A DNA stretch of 49,530 bases, from assembly GCA_004294095.1 (NCBI GenBank), contig RDZR01000043.1, forward strand, positions 1 through 49,530. The letters run 5' to 3'. Under the pieces are notes generated by a model. That model did not search any database. It was not told where the DNA came from and worked only from the letters and a program-made list of their open reading frames with translations. This DNA is from Verrucomicrobiota bacterium. Lineage in GTDB: Bacteria; Verrucomicrobiota; Verrucomicrobiia; Verrucomicrobiales; Akkermansiaceae. Position numbers and translations under genes: made by a program. This document shows positions 2 through 48,392 of the stretch, in pieces. Position 1 is the first letter of the stretch; each line of letters starts with the position of its first letter.

Positions 2-574
2 TCCTCCAGCAGTTACGCCTTCAAATACCGCAACTACAACCCCGAGATCGCAAGATGGACCTCGGAAGATCCCAGCGGCTTTCCCGATGGGGCGAATGGC
101 AGTGCTTATGCACCGGTTCTAACTTCGAGTTTTGATTTCATGGGACTATGGCGGGTGATACTTTTCAATACGAGCAATGCTAACCAAAATATCCCGGCCC
201 ATAGCGGCGGCGTTTTAAATAGTATTGATGGTAGAGGCACTCTTAGTGCGACTAATACAAACTTTTTTGCGAGCTCAAATATGTTAGGACAAGCATCAGA
301 TCTCTTTGGCAGTGCCTTCGCATCGATTCCAGGAAGTCTATCGTGCACTTCTGACGGCAAAATAATCGTCTCTACAATGCCCATAGATACAGATCAATCT
401 TACTTCACAAATGCTTACGTCACTTCGAGTATAACTTTCAGTGGCGAGCAGCTAGCTACTGTATCTTTTGAGTGGGGTGGTAGCATCAGTGCAACTATCG
501 TAGGGGGAATTTCAATCCCTAGATCTAAAATCGATAAGAGCTTTATTTCACCAACCTATAAATGCATAGAATAA
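2..574 (+). CDS. Rhs/YD-repeat protein, C-terminal end with variable tip (5' end outside window)
   Basis: The frame is open from the window edge to a TAA at 572-574, so only the last 190 residues are present. It opens with the end of the Rhs core: YRNYNPEIARW, then TSEDPSGFPDG, the conserved stretch in which the core shell closes before the polymorphic C-terminal tip. The usual NxYAYV/DPxGL ending is altered here (GSAYAPV, then FDFMGLW). The remaining ~145 residues are AT-rich in codon use, Ser/Thr/Gly-rich and probably beta-structured; I do not recognise a toxin family. Rhs proteins are large secreted or surface proteins that often deliver C-terminal toxins, and an immunity gene usually follows directly. 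Here a two-helix membrane ORF starts 2 bases after the stop. The Rhs assignment is firm; the toxin role is inference. Confidence 0.8.
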   Translation, partial: SSSSYAFKYRNYNPEIARWTSEDPSGFPDGANGSAYAPVLTSSFDFMGLWRVILFNTSNANQNIPAHSGGVLNSIDGRGTLSATNTNFFASSNMLGQASDLFGSAFASIPGSLSCTSDGKIIVSTMPIDTDQSYFTNAYVTSSITFSGEQLATVSFEWGGSISATIVGGISIPRSKIDKSFISPTYKCIE

Positions 575-575
575 T

Positions 576-752
576 ATGATCATACTTGCTATTACACTAC
601 TAGCGTTTTCAATTTTAGCCGTAGGTTACGCGGCTTATCCAAAGTCTAAACTCATACGAACAAGCCTACTGTTGTTTATAATTATAGTTGTTTTGTCAAC
701 GACTTTTGGCTTTTTCTCAAAGGATTTAACTAGTAAATTATTATTTCCGTAG
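576..752 (+). CDS. Small two-helix membrane protein, candidate immunity partner of the Rhs tip
   Basis: This 58-codon ORF starts at ATG 576, two bases after the rhs stop codon, and ends at TAG 750-752. The product is almost entirely hydrophobic, with one predicted transmembrane helix at about residues 2-20 (MIILAITLLAFSILAVGYAA) and a second at about 31-47, separated by a short basic loop (KSKLIR). No family is recognised. The tight coupling to an rhs tip, the small size and the AT-rich composition match the layout expected of an immunity gene against a membrane- or periplasm-acting tip, but function is inferred from position only. Confidence 0.5.
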   Translation: MIILAITLLAFSILAVGYAAYPKSKLIRTSLLLFIIIVVLSTTFGFFSKDLTSKLLFP

Positions 753-859
753 ATTTCGTATTTCGGAAATTCTCCATACGTGACTAGTATGGCCAATAAT
801 CATTAAGATTTTTTCTTCTAACGCAATTGAATCATGATGAAACAGGAAATAAAAAATAA

Positions 860-1153
860 GAATCTCGCGAATATTATAAATTTCGTATCAATTCAACATC
901 AGGGGAAGTATCGATGACTGGATTAAGTCAAAACTCGGGTGTAGACCAAGGTTTCACTATTGGTGAAGCCACTTCCGGCTATATGATTGGATATGAAGAT
1001 GGGACTAATGTCACGCAAGGTAAAATTGCATATAACCACGGATATACTAGTAAGGGCCATGGAAATGTTGGGTTTTACGGATTTGGATTGTCTGTCGAAG
1101 TTACAATAGTAACGTCCAATGGGATCTACCGCAAAGTTACAGCTTTGCATTAA
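860..1153 (+). CDS. Orphan Rhs-tip-like ORF (79 residues from the ATG at 914)
   Basis: The frame is open from 860 (after a stop at 857-859) to TAA 1151-1153, with the only ATG at 914. The product is Gly/Ser/Thr-rich with alternating hydrophobic residues (GFGLSVEVTIVTSNG near the end), similar in style to the C-terminal tip encoded at 140-574, but without any Rhs core. It is AT-rich like the rest of this end of the window. The readable frame upstream of the ATG suggests a tip that lost its core by recombination. I do not recognise a family; it could also be a chance ORF. Confidence 0.35.
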   Translation, partial: ESREYYKFRINSTSGEVSMTGLSQNSGVDQGFTIGEATSGYMIGYEDGTNVTQGKIAYNHGYTSKGHGNVGFYGFGLSVEVTIVTSNGIYRKVTALH

Positions 1154-1203
1154 ATAAAGAAAGATATGAATAAATCAAATATGTTAGAAAAAAGATCATA
1201 ATT

Positions 1204-1302
1204 ATGACTATTCAATTTTTAACCTTTACGGTATCCTTGCTTAGCCTTTTTTTAACTATATTTTTACTTATTTATTTAATTTTAAAATTAAATAAAAAAT
1301 AG
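1204..1302 (+). CDS. 32-residue single-helix membrane peptide
   Basis: ATG 1204 to TAG 1300-1302. The peptide is one hydrophobic helix, rich in Leu/Ile/Phe with a Lys-rich C-terminus (LKLNKK). It lies 50 bases after the orphan tip ORF at 860-1153, repeating the tip-then-membrane-peptide order seen at 2-752. It is very short and AT-rich, so a chance ORF is possible. Its role, if any, would be immunity-like by position. Confidence 0.3.
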   Translation: MTIQFLTFTVSLLSLFLTIFLLIYLILKLNKK

Positions 1303-1451
1303 TGCATAAAGTTATATATTTTGGTTTAATGCGGGGCGAAATCAGACCCTACCAAGACAATAGTTTAGTTAGCTCGATGATTCTAATTCTCACTCGCCTT
1401 CTCTGTTCTGTTGCGCAATGGCGTGCGGAGAAGGCATCTAATATATGCAGC

Positions 1452-1660
1452 AGCTCCGCCAGCCAAGAACCCGCGTTCTTCACCGGCAAGCCCTACCTCG
1501 AATCTTCTAGCGGCTACGCCTACAAAATACTGCAACTACAACCCCGACTGGAGATATGGAAGCTACTGTGACTTTAAATGCAACAATTGGTGGAAAATTT
1601 GGGCCATTTACGGGCGGACCTACACATACGAGTTCGCGTTTGATAAAACAAGGTGACTGA
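1452..1660 (+). pseudogene. Frameshifted, internally deleted second copy of the Rhs core end and tail
   Basis: In one frame the DNA encodes EPAFFTGKPYLESSSGYAYK, a typical pre-terminal Rhs core segment. A one-base insertion then moves YNPDW into the next frame. A third frame, from ATG 1556 to TGA 1658-1660, gives a 34-residue glycine-rich tail (ATIGGKFGPFTGGP) like an Rhs tip end. At DNA level 1532-1545 is identical to 30-43 at the left edge, both inside the YRNYNPE motif, so the two cores are homologous. The block between YNPDW and the tail (the DPSGFPDG part) is missing. This is a degraded displaced rhs end, common downstream of active rhs genes. The Rhs origin is well supported; the exact boundaries are not. 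Confidence 0.6.
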
Positions 1661-1803
1661 TAAAATGCTGGCGCATTATTCTAACAGATTACCGCGATTT
1701 GATCGTTTTTATTTCCATAGGGATCGTAGGATTTGGGTGTGACTATGATGTGAGGCCGAATGGAAGGTTTCATGTGGGGGTGGGTTTTGAGGTAGGTTTT
1801 TAA
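1657..1803 (+). pseudogene. Hydrophobic ORF fragment without ATG, downstream of the rhs remnant
   Basis: This open frame begins at the stop of the preceding tail and ends at TAA 1801-1803. It contains a hydrophobic stretch (LIVFISIGIVGFG) followed by CDYDVRPNGRFHVGVGFEVG. There is no ATG in frame; TTG 1699 is possible. It is the third case here of a hydrophobic ORF directly after an Rhs tip-like tail. No family is recognised. A copy of the CTAACAG heptamer lies at 1681. Confidence 0.2.
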
Positions 1804-1866
1804 AAAATCCAACTTGCCGCTTGGATTGGGACTACTTAGCGTTTGGGAAATTTTTAAATAAAGCTT

Positions 1867-2760
1867 ATGCAATGGAAAGGACGCCGAAAGAGCGAGCAAG
1901 TTGAGGATGCGAGAGGCCAGCGCGGCCCTATGTTTGGCGGTGCGGGCGGTGGTGGTGGCGGAATTGGGATGCTGATTACCATTGGGCGCATGTTTGGCTT
2001 TAAGGGAATTTTAGCGGCATTGGTGTTAGGCGTGGTGCTGTGGAAAGTGGGCATCATCGATATGAATTTTCTGTTAGGAGGCGGTGCGCCATCGAGCCAA
2101 TCGGCACCGGTGCAGAGCAGTGCCGAGGAGGATGAACAAATCGATTTTGCACGGGTGGTTTTAGCAGATACGGAAGACGTGTGGACTGCTGAATTTTCCC
2201 GTAACGGGATGCGCTACGAATTGCCAGCGATGAAAGTCTATCGGGACCGCGTTCAAACCGCATGCGGTGCTGGGCAAGCGAGCATGGGGCCATTTTATTG
2301 TCCGGGAGATAAAACGGTCTATTTGGATTTGAGCTTTTACAGCGAATTGGCCGAGACGTTTCAAGCGCCCGGAGATTTTGCACAAGCCTATGTGATCGCA
2401 CATGAAGTCGGCCATCATGTGCAAAATCTGTTAGGAACATCTGCCAAGGTGCAATCCATGCGAGGAAGGCCAGATTACAATCAATACTCAGTGCGCCTCG
2501 AATTGCAGGCGGATTATTACGCGGGCGTCTGGGCACATCACACGCAAAAATACCTCGATCACGGCGATGTGGAAGAGGCGATGAGAGCGGCAAATGCCAT
2601 CGGCGATGATGCGATTCAAAAGAAATCACAGGGACGAGTGGTGCCTCATGCATTCACGCACGGCACCTCAGAACAACGCATGCGATGGTTTTCCAAAGGC
2701 CTCAAAAGTGGGAAAATCGAGGAGGGCGATACCTTCGCGATGGCCTACGATGAATTGTAG
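1867..2760 (+). CDS. Neutral zinc metallopeptidase, YpfJ family
   Basis: 297 residues. After a basic N-terminus and a glycine run (about 24-34) comes one membrane helix at about 47-70, then a periplasmic domain with HEVGHH at residues 179-184, the HExxH zinc site of the YpfJ/neutral zinc metallopeptidase family (PF04228). Also typical are the cysteine pair around TACG...FYCPGD (133 and 145) and the region FYSELAETFQAPGDFAQAYVIA before the active site. The distal ELQADYYAGVWAHH provides the third ligand region. Length and order match E. coli YpfJ (about 290 residues). The natural substrate of the family is not known. The ATG at 1867 is the first in frame. The gene is not obviously co-transcribed with prfC, which begins 72 bases later. 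Confidence 0.9.
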   Translation: MQWKGRRKSEQVEDARGQRGPMFGGAGGGGGGIGMLITIGRMFGFKGILAALVLGVVLWKVGIIDMNFLLGGGAPSSQSAPVQSSAEEDEQIDFARVVLADTEDVWTAEFSRNGMRYELPAMKVYRDRVQTACGAGQASMGPFYCPGDKTVYLDLSFYSELAETFQAPGDFAQAYVIAHEVGHHVQNLLGTSAKVQSMRGRPDYNQYSVRLELQADYYAGVWAHHTQKYLDHGDVEEAMRAANAIGDDAIQKKSQGRVVPHAFTHGTSEQRMRWFSKGLKSGKIEEGDTFAMAYDEL

Positions 2761-2832
2761 TCTGAGAAAATTTCTACCCGAGCACCGCGCTTGCTTCAGC
2801 GGCTTGGAGCGGATACGCCTGTGCTCCGCCGC

Positions 2833-4473
2833 ATGTCATTCACGTCATTTTCACATCCCTCGCCCGAGTTGCAACGCGAAGTCCAACGACGCCGTTCTTT
2901 CGCGATCATTTCTCACCCGGATGCGGGCAAGACGACTCTAACAGAAAAATTTCTCCTCTACGGCGGCGCGTTGAATCTAGCAGGTAGTGTGACTGCACGG
3001 AAGAACCAACGCTCCACCACTTCCGACTGGATGGATTTGGAAAAACAACGCGGCATTTCGGTAAGCTCCACGGTGCTGCAATTTGAATACCGCGATGCGA
3101 TTGTGAACATTCTGGACACGCCCGGGCACAAAGATTTTTCCGAGGACACCTATCGAGTTCTCACCGCAGTGGATGCCGCGGTGATGGTCATCGATGCCGG
3201 TAAAGGCATTGAAAGCCAAACCCGCAAACTCTTCGAAGTGTGCCGGCGGCGGGGGGTGCCGATTTTTACATTCATGAATAAAATGGACCGTCCTGCGCGG
3301 CCACCTATGGATCTGTTAGACGAGTTGGAGTCCGTTCTGGGCATCCATGCGTTTCCGGTGAATTGGCCGCTTGGCGATGGTCCACGCTTCCGTGGCGTGT
3401 ATGATCGCGAGCACCGGCAAGTGCACCTGTTTGAGCGCACCGTGCATGGTGCGTATCGTGCGCCAGTGAGCGTGCAGGGCATCGGCGATGAGAGCGTGAA
3501 ACAGGCGATGGATGAAATTTCCTACGCACAAGTATGCGACGAGCTTGAGCTGTTAGAAGGCGCGGGGGCGGACTTTAATTTAGAGCAAGTGCTCGCCGGA
3601 GAATTGACGCCCGTTTTTTTCGGCAGCGCGGCGAATAACTTCGGCGTTCAACTTTTGTTAGATCGGTTTCTTGAATTGGCACCACCACCGTTAGCGCGAG
3701 AAAGTGCCAAGGGCATGATTCATCCGGCGGCGGCAGAATTTTCCGCATTCGTGTTTAAAATCCAGGCCAACATGAATCCGAAACATCGCGATCGGGTGGC
3801 CTTCATGCGCATCGTTTCAGGAAAATTTGAGCGCGATATGGATGTGATCCACGGCCGCACGGGCGATAAAATACGCTTGTCCAACTCGCAGCGGCTTTTT
3901 GCCAGAGAGCGGGAAACGGTGGATGACGCGTATGCCGGCGATGTCGTCGGGCTGGTGGGAAACTACGATTTGCTGATCGGCGATACGCTCGCATCGATGG
4001 CTGGCGTGCAATTTGATGAGATTCCGCGGTTTTCTCCAGAATGCTTTTCCTTCCTCCACAACAATAGCACCGCAAAGTATAAGCGATTCCGCGATGGTCT
4101 CCAGCAATTACTGAAGGAAGGCGTGGCGAGTGAATTTATTCTGTTAGATTCTAGCGGCCAGCAAGTCCCGCTGTTAGGCGCGGTGGGGCCGCTGCAATTT
4201 GAAGTGCTGCAATATCGGCTTGAAAGCGAATACGCGGCGGAAACGCGGCTCGAGTCCGCATCATGGTCCTTGGCCCGCTGGCTGCGGCCGAAAGATGGCG
4301 ATGCGATGGCCGAAATCGCGCGGCCTAGTCTTTCCTTGGGGGTGGCATTGGCCCGCGATAGCAACGGCTGGCTGGTGGCACTGATTCCAAGCGAATGGGC
4401 GCTCAAGACGTTTGCGGATAAAAATGAAGATTGGATCATCTCCGAGCAGCCATTTGCCCCGCCTACGGTCTAA
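2833..4473 (+). CDS. prfC: Peptide chain release factor 3 (GTPase)
   Basis: 546 residues from ATG 2833; an upstream in-frame ATG (2791) would add 14 residues unlike the family, whose members start close to SPxLxxEVxxRRxFAIISHPD. RF3 is a translational GTPase that recycles RF1/RF2 from the ribosome after peptide release. Visible motifs: P-loop SHPDAGKTT (about residues 27-35), switch I region with SDWMDLEKQRGIS, G3 DTPGH, and G4 NKMDRPARPP. The RF3-typical NWPLGDG follows, and domains II/III run through FSPECFSFL and QLLKEGVASEF to GPLQFEVLQYRLESEY. Length equals that of E. coli PrfC (529) within the normal range. The gene carries several CTGTTAG heptamers (3313, 3550, 4141, 4171; reverse form at 2938). 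Confidence 0.95.
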   Translation: MSFTSFSHPSPELQREVQRRRSFAIISHPDAGKTTLTEKFLLYGGALNLAGSVTARKNQRSTTSDWMDLEKQRGISVSSTVLQFEYRDAIVNILDTPGHKDFSEDTYRVLTAVDAAVMVIDAGKGIESQTRKLFEVCRRRGVPIFTFMNKMDRPARPPMDLLDELESVLGIHAFPVNWPLGDGPRFRGVYDREHRQVHLFERTVHGAYRAPVSVQGIGDESVKQAMDEISYAQVCDELELLEGAGADFNLEQVLAGELTPVFFGSAANNFGVQLLLDRFLELAPPPLARESAKGMIHPAAAEFSAFVFKIQANMNPKHRDRVAFMRIVSGKFERDMDVIHGRTGDKIRLSNSQRLFARERETVDDAYAGDVVGLVGNYDLLIGDTLASMAGVQFDEIPRFSPECFSFLHNNSTAKYKRFRDGLQQLLKEGVASEFILLDSSGQQVPLLGAVGPLQFEVLQYRLESEYAAETRLESASWSLARWLRPKDGDAMAEIARPSLSLGVALARDSNGWLVALIPSEWALKTFADKNEDWIISEQPFAPPTV

Positions 4474-4555
4474 AGCCGAGAGCGGGTAAAATCAGCCTAA
4501 CAGCGCGTTTTGTCGGTTGCACGGCTGGCATGAAGTGGCACAGTCATGTTCATTC

Positions 4556-5542
4556 ATGATGACCACTGAAGAACTGCAACAAAAAATCGAGGAAACCAGT
4601 CTATGGATCCAGCATGTCAAAACCGAAATGGGGCGCGTATTGGTGGGCCAAGATTCGCTGGTAGATCGCTTATTGATCGGCCTTTTGTGCAATGGTCACA
4701 TCCTGCTCGAAGGCGTGCCTGGATTGGCGAAGACTCTCGCGGTGAAAGCACTCTCAGGCTCACTTTCCGCGTCGTTTGCGCGCTTTCAATTCACGCCGGA
4801 TTTGCTCCCAGCTGATTTGATCGGCACCATGATCTATCACCCGCACGACGCACAATTTGAGCCGAAGCTCGGGCCGATTTTTAACAACCTGATCTTGGCA
4901 GATGAAATCAATCGTGCACCGGCCAAGGTGCAATCTGCCTTGTTAGAAGCGATGCAAGAACGCCAAGTGACATTGGGCGATCGCTCGTATCCCCTGCCCC
5001 AGCCATTTTTAGTGCTAGCGACGCAAAATCCGATCGATCAGGAAGGAACCTATCAATTGCCAGAAGCTCAGCTCGATCGATTTTTACTCAAAGTGACCGT
5101 TGGCTACCCGACGAAGGATGAGGAATTGATGATTTTAGACCGCATGGCCACATCTGCGCCCACTTATCAGACGCGGCACGTCGCCAGTCCACAACAGGTG
5201 GCGGCCTCGCGAGAGTGGGTGAACCAAATTTACATCGATCCTGCGATTCGTAAATACATCGTGCAAATCATCCACTCCACCCGCTTTCCGGTGACGATTG
5301 ATGCGCCGCTGAAAAACTGGATGCGCGCAGGGGCATCGCCGCGGGGCACGATCAATCTGGCGCTGGCCGCTCGCGCGCGCGCTTACATGATGGGCCGCGC
5401 ATTCGTCACCCCGCAGGATGTGAAAGATCTGGCGTTGGATGTGCTTCGCCACCGGATATTGCTCAGCTACGAAGCTGAGGCTGAAGAAATCACGTCTGAT
5501 AGCATCCTCACGCGGATTTTACAAAAAGTGCCAGTGCCCTAA
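4556..5542 (+). CDS. moxR: MoxR-family AAA+ ATPase
   Basis: 328 residues from ATG 4556 (a second ATG follows at 4559; an upstream ATG at 4517 gives a non-conserved extension). MoxR ATPases act with von Willebrand A proteins as chaperone-like remodelling systems. Walker A is GVPGLAKT at about 53-60, Walker B LILADEINR at about 112-120, followed by the MoxR-typical SALLEAMQERQVTLG, sensor-1 ATQNP and the GTYQLPEAQLDRF block. The gene heads the bat operon: the DUF58 gene starts 17 bases downstream. Its TAA stop is embedded in a copy of the CTAACAG heptamer (5539-5545), and another copy (4497-4503) lies just upstream of the gene. Confidence 0.93.
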   Translation: MMTTEELQQKIEETSLWIQHVKTEMGRVLVGQDSLVDRLLIGLLCNGHILLEGVPGLAKTLAVKALSGSLSASFARFQFTPDLLPADLIGTMIYHPHDAQFEPKLGPIFNNLILADEINRAPAKVQSALLEAMQERQVTLGDRSYPLPQPFLVLATQNPIDQEGTYQLPEAQLDRFLLKVTVGYPTKDEELMILDRMATSAPTYQTRHVASPQQVAASREWVNQIYIDPAIRKYIVQIIHSTRFPVTIDAPLKNWMRAGASPRGTINLALAARARAYMMGRAFVTPQDVKDLALDVLRHRILLSYEAEAEEITSDSILTRILQKVPVP

Positions 5543-6959: not shown

Positions 6960-7978
6960 TTGATTTTTTCCAACGCTTTCAATTTGCCCAACCAGCATGG
7001 CTACTACTGCTCTTGCTGTGCTTGCCGCTATTGTGGCTCAGGCGTGGAAGAGGCGCAGATGCCGCGGTGACTTTTCCCAATCTATCCGTCCTGATCAGTT
7101 TGGGGAAACCTGTTAGGAAAACTGCTTGGGGCTTGGCGGTGCCACTCGCATGGCTCGCGCTGGTGACCTGCATCGTCACCTTAGCGCGTCCCGTTTTACG
7201 CAATGAATATCAAAACCACACCGCCAGCGGCATCGATATCGTAATCGCCCTCGACGTCTCTCTCTCGATGAATATTGATGATTTTGTCGATCAAGGTCGG
7301 CAAGCCAAACGCATCGATGTTGCCAAAACCGTCGTCGATGAATTCATTAGCGGCAGGCCCGAAGACCGCATCGGCTTGGTTGCTTTTTCCGGAAGGCCGC
7401 GAGATTGCAGCCCGATTACGTTAGATCACGAATGGCTGCGAGCTGCCTTGCGAGAAGTGAGGCTCAACAAGGTCGAGGAAAACTTAGGCACCGTCAAAGA
7501 GCAAGGCACGGCCATAGGCTCGGCCATCGCCGCAGCCAGTAGCCGATTGCAATCGCGCGATGCGAAAAGCCGGGTGGTTGTGCTCATTACTGATGGCGCG
7601 AGTAATTCGGGGAAAATTTCCCCACTAGAAGCCGCTGAAAATGCGAAAGTGTTAGGCATTAAAATTTACACCGTCGCCATCGGCACGATCGAAGGCCGCG
7701 TCGATCCTAGCATCCAGCGCTTTCCCTATCAGGAATTTGATCTGCCGACGCTTCAAAAAATAGCATCTCTAACAGGTGCTGAACATTACTGGGCGCAAAA
7801 TTTAAAAGACCTGAAAACGACGTTTAACACAATTGATCGGTTAGAAAAAACCGAGGCAAAAAGTTACACCTTCACTGAAGACATCGAACTCTACGGCCCA
7901 TTTCTCGGCCTTGCGATTATCTTAACCATTCTAGCAGGATTGGCAATTTGCCTCTCACCCGAACCACAGCCGATATGA
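6956..7978 (+). CDS. batA: BatA-type VWA membrane protein
   Basis: 340 residues. Two N-terminal membrane helices (about 14-28 and 55-80) precede a von Willebrand A domain with a complete metal-ion site: DVSLS at about residues 100-104, the following SGRPRDCSPITLDHEW loop, and ITDGASNSG. A third helix closes the protein at about 311-332. This is the topology of Bacteroides/Leptospira BatA and BatB proteins, which are inner-membrane proteins with a VWA domain linked to stress or oxygen tolerance. Start and stop both overlap neighbouring genes as ATGA. Confidence 0.85.
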   Translation: MIDFFQRFQFAQPAWLLLLLLCLPLLWLRRGRGADAAVTFPNLSVLISLGKPVRKTAWGLAVPLAWLALVTCIVTLARPVLRNEYQNHTASGIDIVIALDVSLSMNIDDFVDQGRQAKRIDVAKTVVDEFISGRPEDRIGLVAFSGRPRDCSPITLDHEWLRAALREVRLNKVEENLGTVKEQGTAIGSAIAAASSRLQSRDAKSRVVVLITDGASNSGKISPLEAAENAKVLGIKIYTVAIGTIEGRVDPSIQRFPYQEFDLPTLQKIASLTGAEHYWAQNLKDLKTTFNTIDRLEKTEAKSYTFTEDIELYGPFLGLAIILTILAGLAICLSPEPQPI

Positions 7979-9912
7979 CACTGCAGTCTCCATATTGGTT
8001 ATTGATGTTACTCATCATTCCGCTACTAGGCCTCTCGTGGATCTTGATTCCGCAGATGAGGAGAAGCCGTTGGCATTCTTTTACCTCGCCACGTCTTTCA
8101 CACCATTTGCTCAAAACCGGGAATCTTTTCACCCGCCGCATCAGCGCGATCTTGTTGCTGATCGCGCTGATTTTCATGATCGCCGGATTGGCTCGTCCAC
8201 AAATCAAGCAAGGCCTAGGTGAGGAAACCAGCACTGGTAAAAATGTCTTATTCGCGCTCGATCTCTCGCGCAGCATGCGGGTGAACGATGTGAAACCAGA
8301 CCGCCTATCGAAGGCCAAAGTATTGCTCTATGAATTGATGGATTCGATGCCTAACGAACGGGTCGGCCTGATCGGTTTTGGCGGCGATGCCTATTCATAC
8401 GCTCCGCTCACTATCGATCACGCCGCAGTGCGCGAAGTTATTGAGCAAATCGATGAGCAATGGATGCCACAGGGTGGAACGAATCTCGCTAACGCGGTTG
8501 AACTAGGCATCGAAACACTGAAAAAAACCGGTCAAAAAACCAACGCACTGGTCATCTTAAGCGATGGTGAAAAACACGAAGGCGAGATGAATTCCATCAT
8601 CAATGCCGCAGCCCATGCCGGAATTTACATCGTCACCATCGGCATTGGCACCGAAGATGGAGGATTCGTGCCAGATCCAAATTCTGCTGGTTTACCCATG
8701 CTCAGTGCCAACGGAAAAGAAGTCATCAGCCGCCTGATGCCTCAATTTTTAATTCAACTCGCGACTGAAACCAACGGCCGCTACATCGCTGCAAATCGCA
8801 CGATCAATATCCCAGAAGTGGTTCAATCAATCGTTCAAGATTTGGATAATTATCAAATTAAAGGGCGCAGCAAGGAAATCGCGACTGAGTTTTTTCAGTG
8901 GCTTGTCCTGCCCGCAATTATCGTGCTGTTTGCATCCATCATCTTTGCCACGCGCTGGCGCGGAATTGGCGCAACGGCTCTGCTGTTAGTGACGCTGCAC
9001 TCAAGCCCCACCGCATCCGCGAATCAAGCAGCAGAGGCATTAAAATTGTTAGACTCAAAGAATTATTCAGGCTCGCTAGAGATGTATCGTCGATTGGCAA
9101 ATGACTCGATGTTGCCAGAGCGGCGGGCTACATTTCGCCTTGGCGAAGGACTCTCTGCCTATCGAGCTGAGCAATTCAAAGATGCACGAAACGCCTTCAG
9201 CAGGGCGCTCACCGCAAAATCCTCAGAGACCCGAGCTGCCGCTCACCTCGGCGTAGCGAATACTTTATTTCAAATGGGTTGGATTATTCTAACAGAAAAA
9301 AGCTACCCTCAAGCCAGCGATGAATTACCGGATAGCAATCGTTTCGATACGATCGTTCGCGAGCGGCTTTCGACCCTGCGGATGAGTGAATTATCCGCAG
9401 ATGGCAACCCGCAAGGACTTGGAGTCCTGCGCGGCCTCGTCACCGATTGGGCGGATGCCGTCAGGCATTACGATTCATCATTGGCCATCGGGCGGGATAA
9501 GGAAGAAGCCAGCTCGAATCGTGAATTAACGATGAGGTATTTGCTTCGCCTTAAAGAATTGTTAGAAGAAGAACAAGAGACAATGCAGCAGGCGATGCAG
9601 CAAGCGATGCCAGGACAAGGCCCGCCCAGAGAAGGCGATGGGGGCGGAGAAGGTGATGAGGAAAATCCTGGCAAAGGAAAATCTAACAAAGAAAAGCAAG
9701 GAGACGGAGATGGCGATCAACGTGAAGACAAACGAGGTGGCGATCGTTCCAAAAAAGAAGATCCAGAGCCAAACGATTCTAAAAAAGGACAGTCCACCGG
9801 CGAAACACCCGAAGAACGCGCAGGCCGCATCTTGAAAGAAAATTCTGATTTGGAAAAAGGCCCTCTTACTTCCGGAAAAGGAGAACTCTCAGGCCCCGAA
9901 AAAGATTGGTAA
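7975..9912 (+). CDS. BatB-BatC fusion: VWA membrane protein with TPR and charged tail
   Basis: 645 residues from ATG 7975, chosen over an upstream in-frame start (7948) because it gives a 4-base ATGA overlap with batA. Domains: helices at about 5-22 and 50-75; VWA domain at about 85-280 with DLSRS, GGTNLA and LSDGEKHEGE; a helix pair near 305-345; then TPR-like repeats (about 350-460) as in BatC. A very hydrophilic Gly/Glu/Lys/Asp tail makes up the last ~115 residues (GDGGGEGDEENPGKG and similar). In Bacteroides and Leptospira BatB and BatC are usually separate proteins; here they are one polypeptide. The low-complexity tail is probably disordered. Confidence 0.85.
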   Translation: MTLQSPYWLLMLLIIPLLGLSWILIPQMRRSRWHSFTSPRLSHHLLKTGNLFTRRISAILLLIALIFMIAGLARPQIKQGLGEETSTGKNVLFALDLSRSMRVNDVKPDRLSKAKVLLYELMDSMPNERVGLIGFGGDAYSYAPLTIDHAAVREVIEQIDEQWMPQGGTNLANAVELGIETLKKTGQKTNALVILSDGEKHEGEMNSIINAAAHAGIYIVTIGIGTEDGGFVPDPNSAGLPMLSANGKEVISRLMPQFLIQLATETNGRYIAANRTINIPEVVQSIVQDLDNYQIKGRSKEIATEFFQWLVLPAIIVLFASIIFATRWRGIGATALLLVTLHSSPTASANQAAEALKLLDSKNYSGSLEMYRRLANDSMLPERRATFRLGEGLSAYRAEQFKDARNAFSRALTAKSSETRAAAHLGVANTLFQMGWIILTEKSYPQASDELPDSNRFDTIVRERLSTLRMSELSADGNPQGLGVLRGLVTDWADAVRHYDSSLAIGRDKEEASSNRELTMRYLLRLKELLEEEQETMQQAMQQAMPGQGPPREGDGGGEGDEENPGKGKSNKEKQGDGDGDQREDKRGGDRSKKEDPEPNDSKKGQSTGETPEERAGRILKENSDLEKGPLTSGKGELSGPEKDW

Positions 9913-42887: not shown

Positions 42888-43010
42888 ATGACATCACCAA
42901 GCAACCCGTTTGCGCTCAAGTTGGGCGCCATCGTAGATACACTCGGGCGATACACTCGCCTTACCATGCTAGCCGCTGCTTGCGGATTAGCTTCCACTCA
43001 AACCAACGCG
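42721..43010 (+). repeat. Duplicated upstream/leader/signal-peptide segment, copy 1
   Basis: Matches the segment at 48712-49004 with gaps: AATAGACAAAATTGT, CAAAAACTCTTTGGCG, CCACAAAACCCATGACATCA and CAACCCGTTTGCGCTCAA occur in both in the same order, as does TTGACC near the left edge. The conservation continues through the signal-peptide codons. It shows that the two propeller genes arose by duplication including their control region. Confidence 0.85.
42802..42817. promoter_or_regulatory. Inverted repeat upstream of the propeller gene
   Basis: TAGACAA-AA-TTGTCTA, a perfect 7-bp inverted repeat with a 2-base centre, about 70 bases before the start codon. The paralogue has the same element at 48795-48810 with one mismatch. 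The position and symmetry suit a dimeric regulator site; the binding protein is unknown. Confidence 0.5.
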
Positions 43011-46000
43011 CAAATCACCAGCGAGCAAGTCATCTCCGGTGACAACGGCGGTTGGTCTGTAGCCTGGGCTCAAGCCAACAACGGCCGCCTCTACCACCTC
43101 GGCGATCTCTACGGCATTTATCGTAGTGATGACCGCGGCCAATCGTGGACGCAGCCTCTCCGGGGCTTTCAATCCGATGAAGAATGGATTGGCTACGGCG
43201 TCGCTGTGGTGCCCACCAATGCCAATAAAGTTTACTATTATGGTGGCGAGCGTGTCTGCCGTTCCCTCGACGGCGGCGAAACTTGGCCGATCTACACCAC
43301 AATCAGTCGCGAAGGCCTAGAGCGCCGACGCGGAGCAGTTCAACTCGCAATCAAACCAGGCACCGAGGACGAAATCTGGGCCATTGGCCGCGTGAATGCC
43401 ACCGATAAGGTGACTCTCATTCGTTCCACTAACGGCGGCTCCTCTTTCGCACCCGTCGGAGGCTCCACCTTTAACAGCGATAACCGCTTAGCGCACTCCA
43501 TTCACTTTCGCCCTACCAACCCAAATCACGTTTGGGTGGGCACCTCAAATGGAGTCTATGCGAGCACCGATGGCGGCTCGAACTGGACTCTAGTTGCTGG
43601 CACCTCAGGCCGAAATATTTCTGCCATCGGATTGAGTAAAGTCCCCGGCAACAACATCGCCATCATTGCGACTCCGAATTGGGTCCGGGCGATTAACGCT
43701 ACCGACTGGAACAACGTTTCCACCTACTTCATTTCTTTCGCGACCGATGACAATCCTGGTAAAGGCTCAAACGGCCATTTGCTCGCTTTGCGAAACGGTA
43801 ATTTCCTGCTCTCGGATAACACTCGGAATCTTTTCCTCATCGGGCCCACCGGTAACCTTATCACCCTTCTGAGCTCGACGCGGAACAACACCAGCCCCGC
43901 TCAAACTCCCGCCTGGGCCGATATGCCCACGGAGATCGCAAAAGGCGACAACTGGATGCGCGAGGATATCTGGCAGGATGTCTCCCAAGATAACACCATC
44001 TACTCCGATGGTGGGGCTGGCCCTTCCATCTCGACCGATCTCGGCCAGACTTGGACTTTCATCTGCAAGGGTGTCCGCGGCGTGGTTACAAACAAACCCG
44101 TCTTGATCGAGGGCAATACGTCTCTAGCTCTCTTCCCCTGCAACGATAAAGGGGTTCTTGTGCACAACGGCGGCGGTAATAGCGACACGCTCGCCACCGT
44201 GGCCAAAAAGGACATTAACTATGGTAACCTCTACGTAATGCACCAGGTCATGCCTGTGGGCAACGGTCAAACAATCTACGGCGTCGGAGGTAAGCAAGGC
44301 GACTTTAGCGTTGCTCCGGTCATGATCAAGAGCACCAACAGTGGTGCTAACTGGACCCAGTTACCCGCTGCGGGCCTCCCTTCTACCAGCGCGATGCGCC
44401 CAGGCAATCTGATCGCCGCCGGCACCGTCGATTTGAACAATCCGAATGACATTCTCGTGCTCATGGGTGCAGACACAGGCACCATCCACCGCTCCACCGA
44501 CGGCGGCCAGACCTTCGGCCCCGCCCTCGGTGGGATCCGCTCGTTCAGCAGTGCGCAGGAAAATTTCAAATCCGCTTTCTTGGAACGCGATGGGGTCAAT
44601 GCTAACAAGCGTTATTGTATCATTAGAGATGATTTTGGCGATGCAACACCCGATGATTTCGGTTTCTATACCTCGGATGATAAAGGTGCGAATTGGACCA
44701 GCCGTAGCCGCCCGTTTGGCGCTGTTGAAGGCTTCTCAGTGGATCCGAAAACGGAGGGGCGTATCTGGCAAGGCACAAACTTTAATCTCCACACCTCGAT
44801 CGACGGCGGAGTGAACTGGATACAGGTCGATAATTTCCAAGGTGTCAGCTCCATCGATGCCTTCAACGGCCGAGTGCTTGTTTACGCGCGCCGCAACAAT
44901 GCACCAACTTGGGATCTTTGGTTTTCACCCGATAACGGCACTAACTGGCAACAGCTCACCAACGCCACCTGGAGATTCCCCAGCACGCGTAATCCTGACC
45001 GCGTTACCCGTTGGAAATTTGCTCTAGATCCTAACAATCCTAACCGCTTCTGGTGCGGCGGACTATCCGGCGCGGTCTATACGTTTAATGCCACCGGCTC
45101 TTCGCCCACCCCTCCTGCCATCACCACGAATCCGTCGAACACCACTGTAACAACTGGAAGCAGCGCAAGCTTCAGCGTCGGTGCCAGCGGCAACCCCGCT
45201 CCTACCTTCCAGTGGCAGCGCGCCGCCAACGGCAGCTCGACATTCAACAACCTGTCAAACGGAGGATCATATTCCGGCGTTACCAGCAGCAGCCTCACGG
45301 TGTCCAACACCACCACCACGATGAGCGGGGATCGCTTCCGCGCAGTGGCCACCAATAGTCAGGGCACCGCTACCAGCTCGGCAGCGACGCTAACTGTCAA
45401 CTCCGCGCCCGTGCCTGTCATTACCAGCTCTTTGACAAGAAGCGGCAACGTCGGCACCGCGCTAAGCTACACCATCACGGCAAGCAACAGCCCGACCAGC
45501 TACAATGCGAGCAGCCTTCCAAACGGCTTGAGCGTAAACACCGCGACGGGTGTGATCAGCGGCACCCCCACCACAGCGGGCACCTTCAATACCACCATCA
45601 GCGCTACCAATGGCAGCGGACCAGGATCGTCCACTTTAGTCTTCACTATTGCAGCCGCCCTTCCTCCAGCTCCGGTCATTAACAGTGCCCTAACTCAAAG
45701 TGGGCAAGTGGCTACCTCGCTCAGTTACACCATTACCGCAACTAACAGCCCCACGAGCTATAACGCCACCAACCTGCCCGCAGGCCTCAGCGTGAATACC
45801 TCTACCGGCGTGATCAGCGGCACTCCCACCGCTGCAGGCACTGTGAACACCAGCGTCAGCGCTACCAACAGCGGTGGCACCGGCTCGTCCACACTGGTCT
45901 TCACCATCGCACCCGATCCTGCCGCCCCAGCGAAGTTGACCGGCACGATTATCGGCACCACCGGTTCGTGGGAAAATAGCGGCAACACCCGCGACAAAGC

Positions 46001-48392
46001 CTTCGATGGAGACACCAACTCGTTCTTCGACGGTCCTTCGGGCAACGGTAACTGGGTCGGCCTCGACCTAGGCACCGCGCAAGTGATCAACCAAGTGCGC
46101 TACTTCCCTCGCAACGGTCTCGGCGAGCGCATGAACGGCGGTATCTTCCAAGGCTCCAGCTCCGCTGATTTTAGCAGCGGCGTCGTCAACCTCCATACCA
46201 TCACCACCAACGCACCAAACTCGTTCACCGCCGTGGCCATCACCAATGGCTCGAGCTTCCGTTACGTCCGCTATCTGTCACCGAACGGCAGCAATGGCAA
46301 CGTGGCCGAGTTGGAATTCTACCGTCCCGGCAACGGCGGCGGCGGTGGCCCCTCAGCACCCGTGATCACCAGCTCGCTCACCGCGACGGCCACGCAGAAC
46401 AGCTCGTTCAGCTACTCGATTGTCGCGACCAATAGCCCCACCAGCTATAACGCCACCAGCCTACCCGCAGGCCTCAGCGTGAATACCTCCACTGGCGTCA
46501 TCAGTGGCACTCCGACGGGAACCGGCACCAGCAACATCAGCATCAGTGCCACCAACGGCGGCGGCACCGATACCGAAACCCTCGTCCTCAACGTCAACGC
46601 TGCAGCGGGTATTACTCTCGCAAATGCGCTGGATAACTCCAACCTTACATGGAGTGTCGGCGGCACCGCCGGCTGGACAGGTCAAACCGCAGTCACATTC
46701 GATGGAGTCGATGCGGCCAAGAGTGCTACTATCGACCATAATCAGGAATCTTGGTTCGAGACTACGGTAACAGGCCCAGGCACGTTGACCTTCCGCTGGA
46801 GGATTTCTTCCGAGGCAGCTTACGACTTCTTGCGCTTTACCATCAACGGGGGCGAGCAAGCCTCTGCAGAAGCGATCTCCGGCGAAGTAAATTGGACACT
46901 CAAAACAGTGTTTGTTCCATCCGGTTCGCAAACCCTGCGTTGGCGCTACGTGAAAGACGGAGCCGATATTGCTGGAGCCGATGCTGCATGGGTCGATCAA
47001 GTGACATACGCCACCTCAAGTGCGACACCTCCCTCGATCACTAGCTCGCTCACCGCAACGGCCACGCAGAACAGCTCGTTCAGCTACTCGATTGTCGCAA
47101 CCAACAGCCCTACGAGCTATAACGCCACCAGCCTGCCCGCAGGCCTCAGCGTCAATACCTCCACCGGTGTGATCAGCGGCACCCCGACTGCCGCAGGAAC
47201 GAGCAATGTCAGCATCAGCGCCACCAACGGCGGCGGCACCGATACCGAATCCCTCGCGCTCACCGTCAACGCCGCAAGCGGTGGATCTGGTGTGAACCGC
47301 GCAACCGGAGGTTCAGCGACTTCCAATAACACTGATTCACCGAACAATGAAGCTGTGGCCCAAGTTTTTGACAGCAATGTCAATACCAAGTGGTTGACCT
47401 TCTCCAATGCAGGCTGGATCCGCTATGCCTTCGGCAGCGGTGCGAGTTGGACCATCACCTCTTACGCAGTCACCAGCGCGAACGACGCACCGGAACGCGA
47501 TCCAAGGAATTGGACACTGCAGGGAAGCAACAATGGCAATGACTGGACCACGGTTGACACCCGCTCCAACGAGACCTTCTCGGCTCGCCTCCAACGGCGG
47601 GTGTTCACCGTCGCTAGTCCCGGCACCTTCAGTTCCTATCGACTGAATGTCTCCGCCAACCAGAGCGGCAGCATCCTGCAACTCGCTGAACTGGAGCTTT
47701 ACTCTGGCTCCGGCAGCACGGTCACCGCTCCCGCGATCACCAGCGCGCTCACCGCGACGGCCACGCAGAACAGCTCGTTCAGCTACACCATCACGGCATC
47801 GAATAGCCCCACGAGCTATAACGCCACCAGCCTGCCCGCTGGCCTCAGCGTAAATACCTCCACCGGCGTGATTAGCGGCACTCCGACGAGTAGCGGCACG
47901 AGCAATGTCGGCATCAGTGCCACCAATTCCGGCGGCAGCGGCTCGGCTACTGTGGTGCTCACCGTCAACGCGGCTTCCGGCGGCGGTTCACCCGTGAAAC
48001 TCACCGGCACCACCATCGGCACCACCGGTTCGTGGACTAACGGCGGCAACACCCGCGACCGCGCGGTGGACGGCAGCACCTCCACGTTCTTCGATGGCCC
48101 CTCGGCCAACGGCATCTGGGTCGGTCTCGACCTAGGCACCGCCAACCAAATCGTGCAAGTGCGCTACTTCCCACGTCAAGACTGGGCTGGCCGCATGGTC
48201 GGAGGCGTGTTCCAGGGCTCCAACACCGCTGACTTCAGCAGCGGCGTCACCACCCTGCACACCATCTCAGCGACACCATCCATGTCGTTCACCACCGTGA
48301 CCATCACCAACGGCACGGCCTTCCGCTACGTCCGCTACCTGTCGCCCAACGACGGCTACGGCAACGTCGCCGAGGTGGAGTTCTATCGTTAA
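42888..48392 (+). CDS. Secreted Asp-box (BNR) beta-propeller protein with Ig-like, putative-Ig and discoidin modules
   Basis: 1834 residues. A signal peptide (about 1-43, ending NAQITSEQ) is followed by a ~690-residue propeller region of the sortilin/BNR type with about ten Asp-box motifs (S-x-D-x-G-x-x-W/F), such as SLDGGETW, STNGGSSF, STDGGSNW, STDLGQTW, STNSGANW, STDGGQTF and SIDGGVNW. Then come an Ig-like domain (about 742-838) and five putative-Ig (He_PIG) modules at about 840, 927, 1155, 1383 and 1613. Two F5/8-type discoidin-like modules are alike (about 1015-1153 and 1704-1834) and a third is different (about 1470-1612); a jelly-roll-like module lies at about 1241-1382. Asp-box propellers include sialidases and xyloglucanases; no catalytic residues can be named. 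The architecture suggests binding or degradation of extracellular polysaccharide. No LPXTG or PEP-CTERM sorting signal is seen. Confidence 0.85.
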   Translation: MTSPSNPFALKLGAIVDTLGRYTRLTMLAAACGLASTQTNAQITSEQVISGDNGGWSVAWAQANNGRLYHLGDLYGIYRSDDRGQSWTQPLRGFQSDEEWIGYGVAVVPTNANKVYYYGGERVCRSLDGGETWPIYTTISREGLERRRGAVQLAIKPGTEDEIWAIGRVNATDKVTLIRSTNGGSSFAPVGGSTFNSDNRLAHSIHFRPTNPNHVWVGTSNGVYASTDGGSNWTLVAGTSGRNISAIGLSKVPGNNIAIIATPNWVRAINATDWNNVSTYFISFATDDNPGKGSNGHLLALRNGNFLLSDNTRNLFLIGPTGNLITLLSSTRNNTSPAQTPAWADMPTEIAKGDNWMREDIWQDVSQDNTIYSDGGAGPSISTDLGQTWTFICKGVRGVVTNKPVLIEGNTSLALFPCNDKGVLVHNGGGNSDTLATVAKKDINYGNLYVMHQVMPVGNGQTIYGVGGKQGDFSVAPVMIKSTNSGANWTQLPAAGLPSTSAMRPGNLIAAGTVDLNNPNDILVLMGADTGTIHRSTDGGQTFGPALGGIRSFSSAQENFKSAFLERDGVNANKRYCIIRDDFGDATPDDFGFYTSDDKGANWTSRSRPFGAVEGFSVDPKTEGRIWQGTNFNLHTSIDGGVNWIQVDNFQGVSSIDAFNGRVLVYARRNNAPTWDLWFSPDNGTNWQQLTNATWRFPSTRNPDRVTRWKFALDPNNPNRFWCGGLSGAVYTFNATGSSPTPPAITTNPSNTTVTTGSSASFSVGASGNPAPTFQWQRAANGSSTFNNLSNGGSYSGVTSSSLTVSNTTTTMSGDRFRAVATNSQGTATSSAATLTVNSAPVPVITSSLTRSGNVGTALSYTITASNSPTSYNASSLPNGLSVNTATGVISGTPTTAGTFNTTISATNGSGPGSSTLVFTIAAALPPAPVINSALTQSGQVATSLSYTITATNSPTSYNATNLPAGLSVNTSTGVISGTPTAAGTVNTSVSATNSGGTGSSTLVFTIAPDPAAPAKLTGTIIGTTGSWENSGNTRDKAFDGDTNSFFDGPSGNGNWVGLDLGTAQVINQVRYFPRNGLGERMNGGIFQGSSSADFSSGVVNLHTITTNAPNSFTAVAITNGSSFRYVRYLSPNGSNGNVAELEFYRPGNGGGGGPSAPVITSSLTATATQNSSFSYSIVATNSPTSYNATSLPAGLSVNTSTGVISGTPTGTGTSNISISATNGGGTDTETLVLNVNAAAGITLANALDNSNLTWSVGGTAGWTGQTAVTFDGVDAAKSATIDHNQESWFETTVTGPGTLTFRWRISSEAAYDFLRFTINGGEQASAEAISGEVNWTLKTVFVPSGSQTLRWRYVKDGADIAGADAAWVDQVTYATSSATPPSITSSLTATATQNSSFSYSIVATNSPTSYNATSLPAGLSVNTSTGVISGTPTAAGTSNVSISATNGGGTDTESLALTVNAASGGSGVNRATGGSATSNNTDSPNNEAVAQVFDSNVNTKWLTFSNAGWIRYAFGSGASWTITSYAVTSANDAPERDPRNWTLQGSNNGNDWTTVDTRSNETFSARLQRRVFTVASPGTFSSYRLNVSANQSGSILQLAELELYSGSGSTVTAPAITSALTATATQNSSFSYTITASNSPTSYNATSLPAGLSVNTSTGVISGTPTSSGTSNVGISATNSGGSGSATVVLTVNAASGGGSPVKLTGTTIGTTGSWTNGGNTRDRAVDGSTSTFFDGPSANGIWVGLDLGTANQIVQVRYFPRQDWAGRMVGGVFQGSNTADFSSGVTTLHTISATPSMSFTTVTITNGTAFRYVRYLSPNDGYGNVAEVEFYR
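45409..47997 (+). repeat. Five near-identical putative-Ig repeat units within the propeller gene
   Basis: Units of about 255-270 bases begin near 45409, 45667, 46351, 47035 and 47725. Units share SPTSYNATSLPAGLSVNTST and GVISGTPT almost unchanged, and the later three also share TATATQNSSFSY at DNA level. Conservation this high between neighbouring modules points to recent duplication or gene conversion. Confidence 0.85.

Follow-up and report, generated by a model that had tools for sequence, protein, structure and literature searches.

The window analysed here, that is, all 49,530 bases of contig C97 from a 3.0-Mb genome (G000) that is 97% complete, probably begins in the last gene still intact in an array of exported mini-Rhs toxin genes, organised as tip/immunity pairs, in an Akkermansiaceae species. 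The system appears to be a new variant of the Rhs polymorphic toxins, in which a glutamate at the very end of most tips is the surprising part. The seven named loci with the same N-domain come from Akkermansiaceae or Akkermansia assemblies (Verrucomicrobiota), and the relatives concerned belong, by their kinship labels, to the window's own genus.

Modules at the start of the window

The contig starts inside its first gene, and the sequence 5' of base 1 is absent from the assembly. The initial annotation had interpreted the first 1.8 kb as three successive modules, each an Rhs-type tip followed by a small membrane ORF, that accumulated behind one rhs gene in an AT-rich stretch. All the ORFs are present where it placed them, and the composition was read correctly, the G+C content falling to 0.34-0.38 over positions 251-1500 compared with 0.51-0.56 over 1751-4750. 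Of the threefold repetition, the first module stands as an intact pair, the second is doubtful and the third is dead, so that the region looks like one pair of exported-toxin-like and membrane-immunity-like genes beside the debris of others. The features are as follows.

2-97, plus strand: end of the mini-Rhs N-domain and of the Rhs core (..YAFKYRNYNPEIARWTSEDPSGFPDGAN); matches model positions 66-97 of the A1 profile (E 4.3e-16)
98-574, plus strand: tip 1, presumed toxin, 158 aa, ending in YKCIE before the stop; relative in genome G072
576-752, plus strand: candidate immunity protein, 58 aa, two transmembrane segments; one base after the stop of tip 1
860-1153, plus strand: open run, possible orphan tip fragment, uncertain; start codon only at 914
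1204-1302, plus strand: 32-aa hydrophobic ORF, uncertain; over an AT palindrome at 1268-1299
1410-1559, plus strand: N-domain remnant from a mini-Rhs gene that is dead (QWRAEKA..FFTGKPYLESSSGYAYK..); matches positions 34-84 of the A1 profile (E 6.2e-11)
1546-1624, plus strand: C-terminal remnant of a C50-type tip; 87% DNA identity to C50:65823-65901
1661-1804, no strand assigned: copy of a dispersed repeat, outside the array; 81-91% identity to seven other places in the genome

In Rhs proteins, the end of the core carries two D..G motifs ahead of the tip. The first gene of the window, which is cut by the contig end, matches the core-end model TIGR03696 with E of about 4e-7, at 30.4 bits just under the cut-off of 32.5; a 1233-aa Rhs protein of the phylum likewise stays just under this cut-off (28.8 bits). 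The signal peptide and the spacer of this gene, if any, would lie beyond the contig start. Tip 1 has only one clear relative (L058 rc 7974-8825, in G072), with which it shares 27% identity overall (phmmer E 2.6e-8). Up to E 1, Pfam offers no match to it, and it is absent from the phage collection searched, and a tip-1 profile run over 387 genomes of the phylum, G072 not necessarily included, matched the window alone. The AlphaFold predictions for tip 1 are too poor for a fold search (mean pLDDT 30 for the sequence alone and 41 with five sequences).

The best Pfam match of the candidate immunity protein is DUF1404 (E 0.009), below the cut-off of that family. Behind the relative of tip 1 in G072 there is likewise a two-transmembrane ORF, of 54 aa, which overlaps it by 4 bases. 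The likeness between these two small ORFs is not significant, being equalled in 956 of 5000 class-preserving shuffles, and phmmer gives no match; they agree in kind and place only, and homology is not provable. At 97% DNA identity, the core end of module 1 also terminates contig C50 of this genome, where it is joined to a different tip (ending in SVSIE) and where an ORF of 132 aa, which has two hydrophobic segments according to our own rule, lies 55 bases behind. The two contigs, then, begin at the same core end and continue into unlike tips, each with a membrane ORF next to it (after one base in the window and 55 bases in C50). That the same stretch ends two contigs is the expected behaviour of an assembler at a repeat.

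The second module did not bear out the earlier reading of 860-1153 as an Rhs tip: this run carries no Rhs core and no start codon ahead of 914, and its length is near chance expectation, 97 open codons being reached in 26 of 1000 Markov shuffles of positions 753-1400. A search across 118 related genomes returned the run itself and two weak matches, with no supported relative, and the best match among 10,258 open segments of local loci has E 0.41. Both weak matches look like chance and were rejected, the one in G027 because it contains internal stops and its neighbours look unrelated, and the one in G080 because it sits inside an unrelated membrane protein. The best relative of the 32-aa ORF at 1204-1302 in the same 10,258 local segments has E 0.35. 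Module 2 is borderline against chance and cannot be called a gene.

The third module (1302-1803) includes a stretch, 1410-1559, that matches mini-Rhs N-domains with phmmer E values down to 1.2e-11; a hydrophobic stretch just 5' of it, at about 1377-1415, may be a leftover signal peptide. The core end at about 1509-1547 is joined by an internal deletion to the end of a C50-type tip, such that the tail at 1556-1660 corresponds to the final portion of the C50 tip (protein E 1.7e-10), in a frame different from that of the N-part. With its middle gone and its two parts out of frame, module 3 is a dead gene. The ORF at 1657-1803, previously proposed as its immunity gene, sits in the dispersed repeat and is therefore not an immunity gene. 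Besides the window, this repeat occupies seven places in the genome (on contigs C15, C23, C32, C44, C57, C77 and C100), and it was for that reason rejected as a part of the array. Its copies are often found near contig ends, and several keep the same short reading-frame tail on the minus strand; perhaps, the repeat is the end of a mobile element. Elsewhere in the window, positions 42888-48392 encode a protein of 1834 aa whose domains are Sortilin/Vps10-like, Ig, He_PIG and F5/8 type C.

Mini-Rhs genes in relatives and the question of a parent

The complete form of such genes is found in G072, where contig C31 carries six mini-Rhs genes within 9.3 kb, each consisting of a signal peptide (MKTKLTFALVASLTSTAFA-EF.. 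or near) and a conserved spacer (PEFKNEKQLAEWRAE..FYTGKPY), followed by the core end and by a tip that differs from gene to gene. The presumed cleavage site after MKTKLTFALVASLTSTAFA was placed by the A-x-A rule for signal peptide cleavage sites. The proteins comprise about 230-285 aa, namely, the signal peptide, about 75 conserved residues and the exchangeable tip; a toxin carrier apparently stripped to about 100 residues is an unexpected feature. Among the 290 genomes searched, there are 12 mini-Rhs genes in four species of the genus (one in G025, two each in G035 and G044, and seven in G072); nine of the 290 genomes match the N-domain at E 1e-6, and in the five besides these four species, one of the five being G000, the match lacks the N-terminal part. 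A further three mini-Rhs genes, with a different signal peptide and spacer, are present in G332, a member of another family. Identity of the N-domains to the first row of the alignment is 61-92% in 10 of the 11 other rows and 52% in one. All four mini-Rhs proteins scanned match TIGR03696 above its cut-off (E 1.7e-9 to 7.3e-15). No YD/RHS repeat (PF05593, TIGR01643) was detected in these four or in the ten scanned against Pfam, and the same ten give no Pfam match to DUF1020 or MafB-N up to E 0.1.

A classical orphan rhs-CT/immunity array would consist of silent cassettes that were displaced from one upstream full-length rhs gene and are not translated alone, and orphan modules of this kind are known for rhs and cdi, as described in the available part of Poole et al. 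2011 (PMC3150448). The phylum does have arrays of this type: in loci L102 and L103, modules adjoin Rhs genes of 1233 and 1410 aa. In G072, moreover, the stretch between the fourth and fifth mini-Rhs genes (L058 rc 7182-7808) reads like the segment of a YD-type Rhs just ahead of the core; the array accordingly has a history with such a gene, which speaks slightly for displaced tips, and this piece may tell how the mini-Rhs array arose. We nevertheless consider displacement unlikely for the window, given that self-contained genes, each with its own signal peptide, carry this core end in the genus. The displacement behind one rhs gene that the initial annotation envisaged is doubtful in view of this organisation of the G072 array and of the different core type of the Rhs gene on contig C113 of the window's own genome; what survives of it is that, as the YD-type piece indicates, a parent may once have been present in the G072 array.

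A PF05593 search of the window's own genome located Rhs genes on contigs C12, C56 and C113. The C113 gene, which runs off the contig end, was considered as the missing 5' part of module 1 and rejected: homologs of its last 200 residues continue into a core of another type, DPI..GG..LY.F, in all six loci read (eight loci were returned, the self locus and L203 not being among the six). No full-length gene with a PDGAN core was found in this genome as assembled, which also counts against the displacement of silent cassettes, and among the matches listed for the tip protein and the N-domain profile, the PDGAN core occurs in it only on C97 and C50. Possibly, the parent Rhs gene was lost or collapsed in the assembly. 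The Rhs genes on C12 (L030) and C113 (L032) are large, have signal-peptide-like starts and both run off their contigs; one of the two, open over 2191 aa, is SpvB/FG-GAP-like by eye.

Tips, partner genes and the terminal glutamate

Across the phylum, the N-domain profile matches at least 80 of 387 genomes at E 1e-3. Among the profile matches listed, nine and then 60 further stretches were sampled in addition to the earlier loci, yielding 142 Rhs-core ORFs, of which 135 were kept (tips no shorter than 60 aa, core end almost complete) and seven dropped. A PDG-type core is carried by 86 ORFs, 82 recognised by the motif and four assigned by hand, with the motif split by an insertion or changed. The tips of these 86 fall into 56 clusters at E 1e-3, that is, a constant N-part, evident from the N-domain alignment, is combined with unrelated C-terminal tips.

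The genes next to the tips follow the tips to a considerable extent: they are homologous in 14 of 40 pairs with homologous tips, pairs that are not independent because clusters are shared, but in only 8 of the 3200 pairs whose tips are unrelated. In the other 26 of the 40 pairs, that of the window included, the next genes show no detectable homology. The toxin-tip/immunity cassettes predicted by the initial annotation are supported, at the level of the family, by this co-inheritance, which points to such pairs; conservation of the next gene beside homologous tips holds for the family, and at tip 1 of the window the agreement is in kind and place only. Most tips match no toxin family and tip 1 is predicted, with low confidence (AlphaFold, five-sequence run), to be beta-rich, as might be expected of structural or adhesive, non-toxic ends with chance or unrelated small ORFs behind them, but we regard this as improbable because one N-domain carries a great diversity of tips and these are inherited together with their next genes, as is seen in toxin/immunity pairs, and structural ends would need no specific partners.

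By a crude hydrophobicity rule, 63 of the 70 next ORFs of 73 Glu-ending PDG-type modules (L142 was left out by hand) are export-like, with a strongly hydrophobic start. The same applies to 32 of 46 next genes of the remaining Rhs, a set that includes the PDG-type L087 under an early motif rule, so that export-like next genes are common in the Rhs of the phylum at large. It is on these export-like partners that the presumption of the envelope as the target is based. At E 0.01, a Pfam scan of 73 tips gives 11 families with one member each, some of which will be chance, among them the Tlde1 domain, DUF4347, DUF6765 and M91 effector; the resemblance of one tip to the Tlde1 L,D-transpeptidase domain (E 1.5e-4) is below the curated cut-off. 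NCBIfam gave two marginal matches. For most of the 73 tips, neither Pfam nor NCBIfam has a matching model, and most appear to be undescribed. In two Verrucomicrobiota families, homologous tips (L097 2039-3193 and L101 rc 826-1833) are each followed by a homologous protein that has an export-like start and reads like ankyrin repeats; these are candidates for a conserved toxin/immunity pair.

The last residue is Glu in 74 of 87 Rhs ORFs with a PDG-type core and in 3 of 48 with other cores (Fisher p 2e-20, a value that overstates independence because the ORFs are related). Among background ORFs of at least 150 aa in the same stretches, 12 of 221 end in Glu. These counts employ a motif widened for split or changed forms; with the strict core motif, the numbers are 70 of 82 for the PDG-type and 7 of 53 for the others, four of these seven carrying the core motif split or changed. 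By clusters, 49 of 56 contain a Glu-ending member and 46 hold Glu-ending members exclusively. None of five other-core Rhs from two other groups (four from a Protochlamydia plasmid and one from Asticcacaulis) ends in Glu.

The exceptions number 13, and in six of them Glu is the penultimate residue. A penultimate Glu, followed by K, H, Y or Q, is seen at L039, L042, L049, L052, L055, L069 and L180, the last of which (PDG-type, ending in Glu-Lys) stands outside the counts; these proteins look as though one residue gets trimmed. Three further exceptions have a GRF..DPSGYP[DN]GPN core; L142, with a similar core, ends in Glu and was counted. L063, whose 11 cluster mates all have a Glu end, may be truncated, and L087, L096 and L120 fit no explanation.

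Several observations indicate that the residue rather than the DNA is conserved: the terminal codon is GAA in 52 cases and GAG in 22, compared with 424:200 inside the tips; all three stops are used in the 77 Glu-ending ORFs (TAA 38, TGA 21 and TAG 18); and, in the flanks of the Glu codon and the stop, no other base is strongly conserved. An overlapping start codon (GAATGA) was rejected as the general cause, with all three stops in use and the flanks little conserved, and so was a sampling artefact of the profile, given that A1 spans the N-domain only and does not reach the C-terminus. Pupylation, as the reader of the terminal Glu, was rejected for the 12 carrier genomes searched, none of which has a match to the Pup ligase PF03136.

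A Glu end is present in 27 of 30 short, 32 of 40 middle and 15 of 16 long ORFs, and is therefore independent of the long YD shell; it is found in 10 of the 12 mini-Rhs of the genus and in all three of G332. The conserved last Glu suggests that the C-terminus of the tip is read by something. Tentatively, we propose that the C-terminal Glu, or less often Glu plus one residue, is a general recognition mark of one class of Verrucomicrobiota Rhs toxins, and that the free C-terminus is recognised by a partner accompanying the PDG[WA]N core; with the same reserve, this partner might be a shared export, processing or docking component that serves whatever tip is attached. An export or processing partner of this core type seems the likeliest form, and a lock between the tip end and the core end the next. 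Since the mini-Rhs without a shell keep the Glu, the reader is probably located outside the Rhs cocoon, as a delivery component. If these proposals are right, the fixed terminal Glu offers a handle on how such toxins exit the Gram-negative cell, and the core motif together with the last residue makes a simple rule for finding intact tips and tip ends.

Proposed mode of action and known systems

In the exported mini-Rhs array that we favour, each gene would specify three parts: a signal peptide for Sec, some 75 conserved residues that close with the Rhs core end and have no YD-repeat shell, and one exchangeable toxin tip. The next gene would encode the matching immunity protein, exported or membrane-bound. 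The toxin would pass the inner membrane via Sec, reach neighbouring cells by some further route and act on their envelope; the producer would escape harm through the position of the partner, on the outer face of the producer's own inner membrane. Cassettes would be gained and lost when genes recombine in the 5' part that they have in common, which would also explain the break of the assembly at this point. If this reading is right, Verrucomicrobiota, the phylum of Akkermansia, hold many mostly unnamed, probably envelope-directed toxin/immunity pairs, some of which ride on a minimal exported carrier.

SitA/SitI of Myxococcus are small exported polymorphic lipoprotein toxins with cassette partners; by contrast, the N-domains of the mini-Rhs of the genus show, from their sequences, a cleavage site of the A-x-A type and not a lipobox. 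The parts of the open-access literature available to our search describe no mini-Rhs of this kind and no conserved terminal glutamate. As far as the available parts of the two papers extend (PMC3150448, PMC3482391), the mini-Rhs resemble the orphan rhs-CT/rhsI modules of Rhs in the core end, the exchangeable C-terminal tips, the adjacent partner gene and the arrays of extra cassettes. They differ in the lack of the YD-repeat shell, the carrier being a signal peptide with about 75 residues, and in cassettes that have their own signal peptides, export-like partners and, mostly, Glu as the last residue. The available part of Zhang et al. 2012 (PMC3482391) lists toxins that depend on Sec and have RHS repeats, lineage-specific N-domains like that of MafB, and one immunity protein that is a lipoprotein.

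The closest architecture, judging by the available part of the report on MafB/MafI of Neisseria (PMC4287609), is that of this system, which shares with the mini-Rhs the signal peptide, the short lineage-specific N-domain, the variable C-terminal toxin, the adjoining immunity gene and the extra cassettes. Unlike in MafB, the N-domain of the mini-Rhs is a remnant of the Rhs core rather than DUF1020, and Glu is terminal; and whereas the maf cassettes, as described there, do not have the full N-part, the mini-Rhs copies that we read retain the signal peptide and the N-domain.
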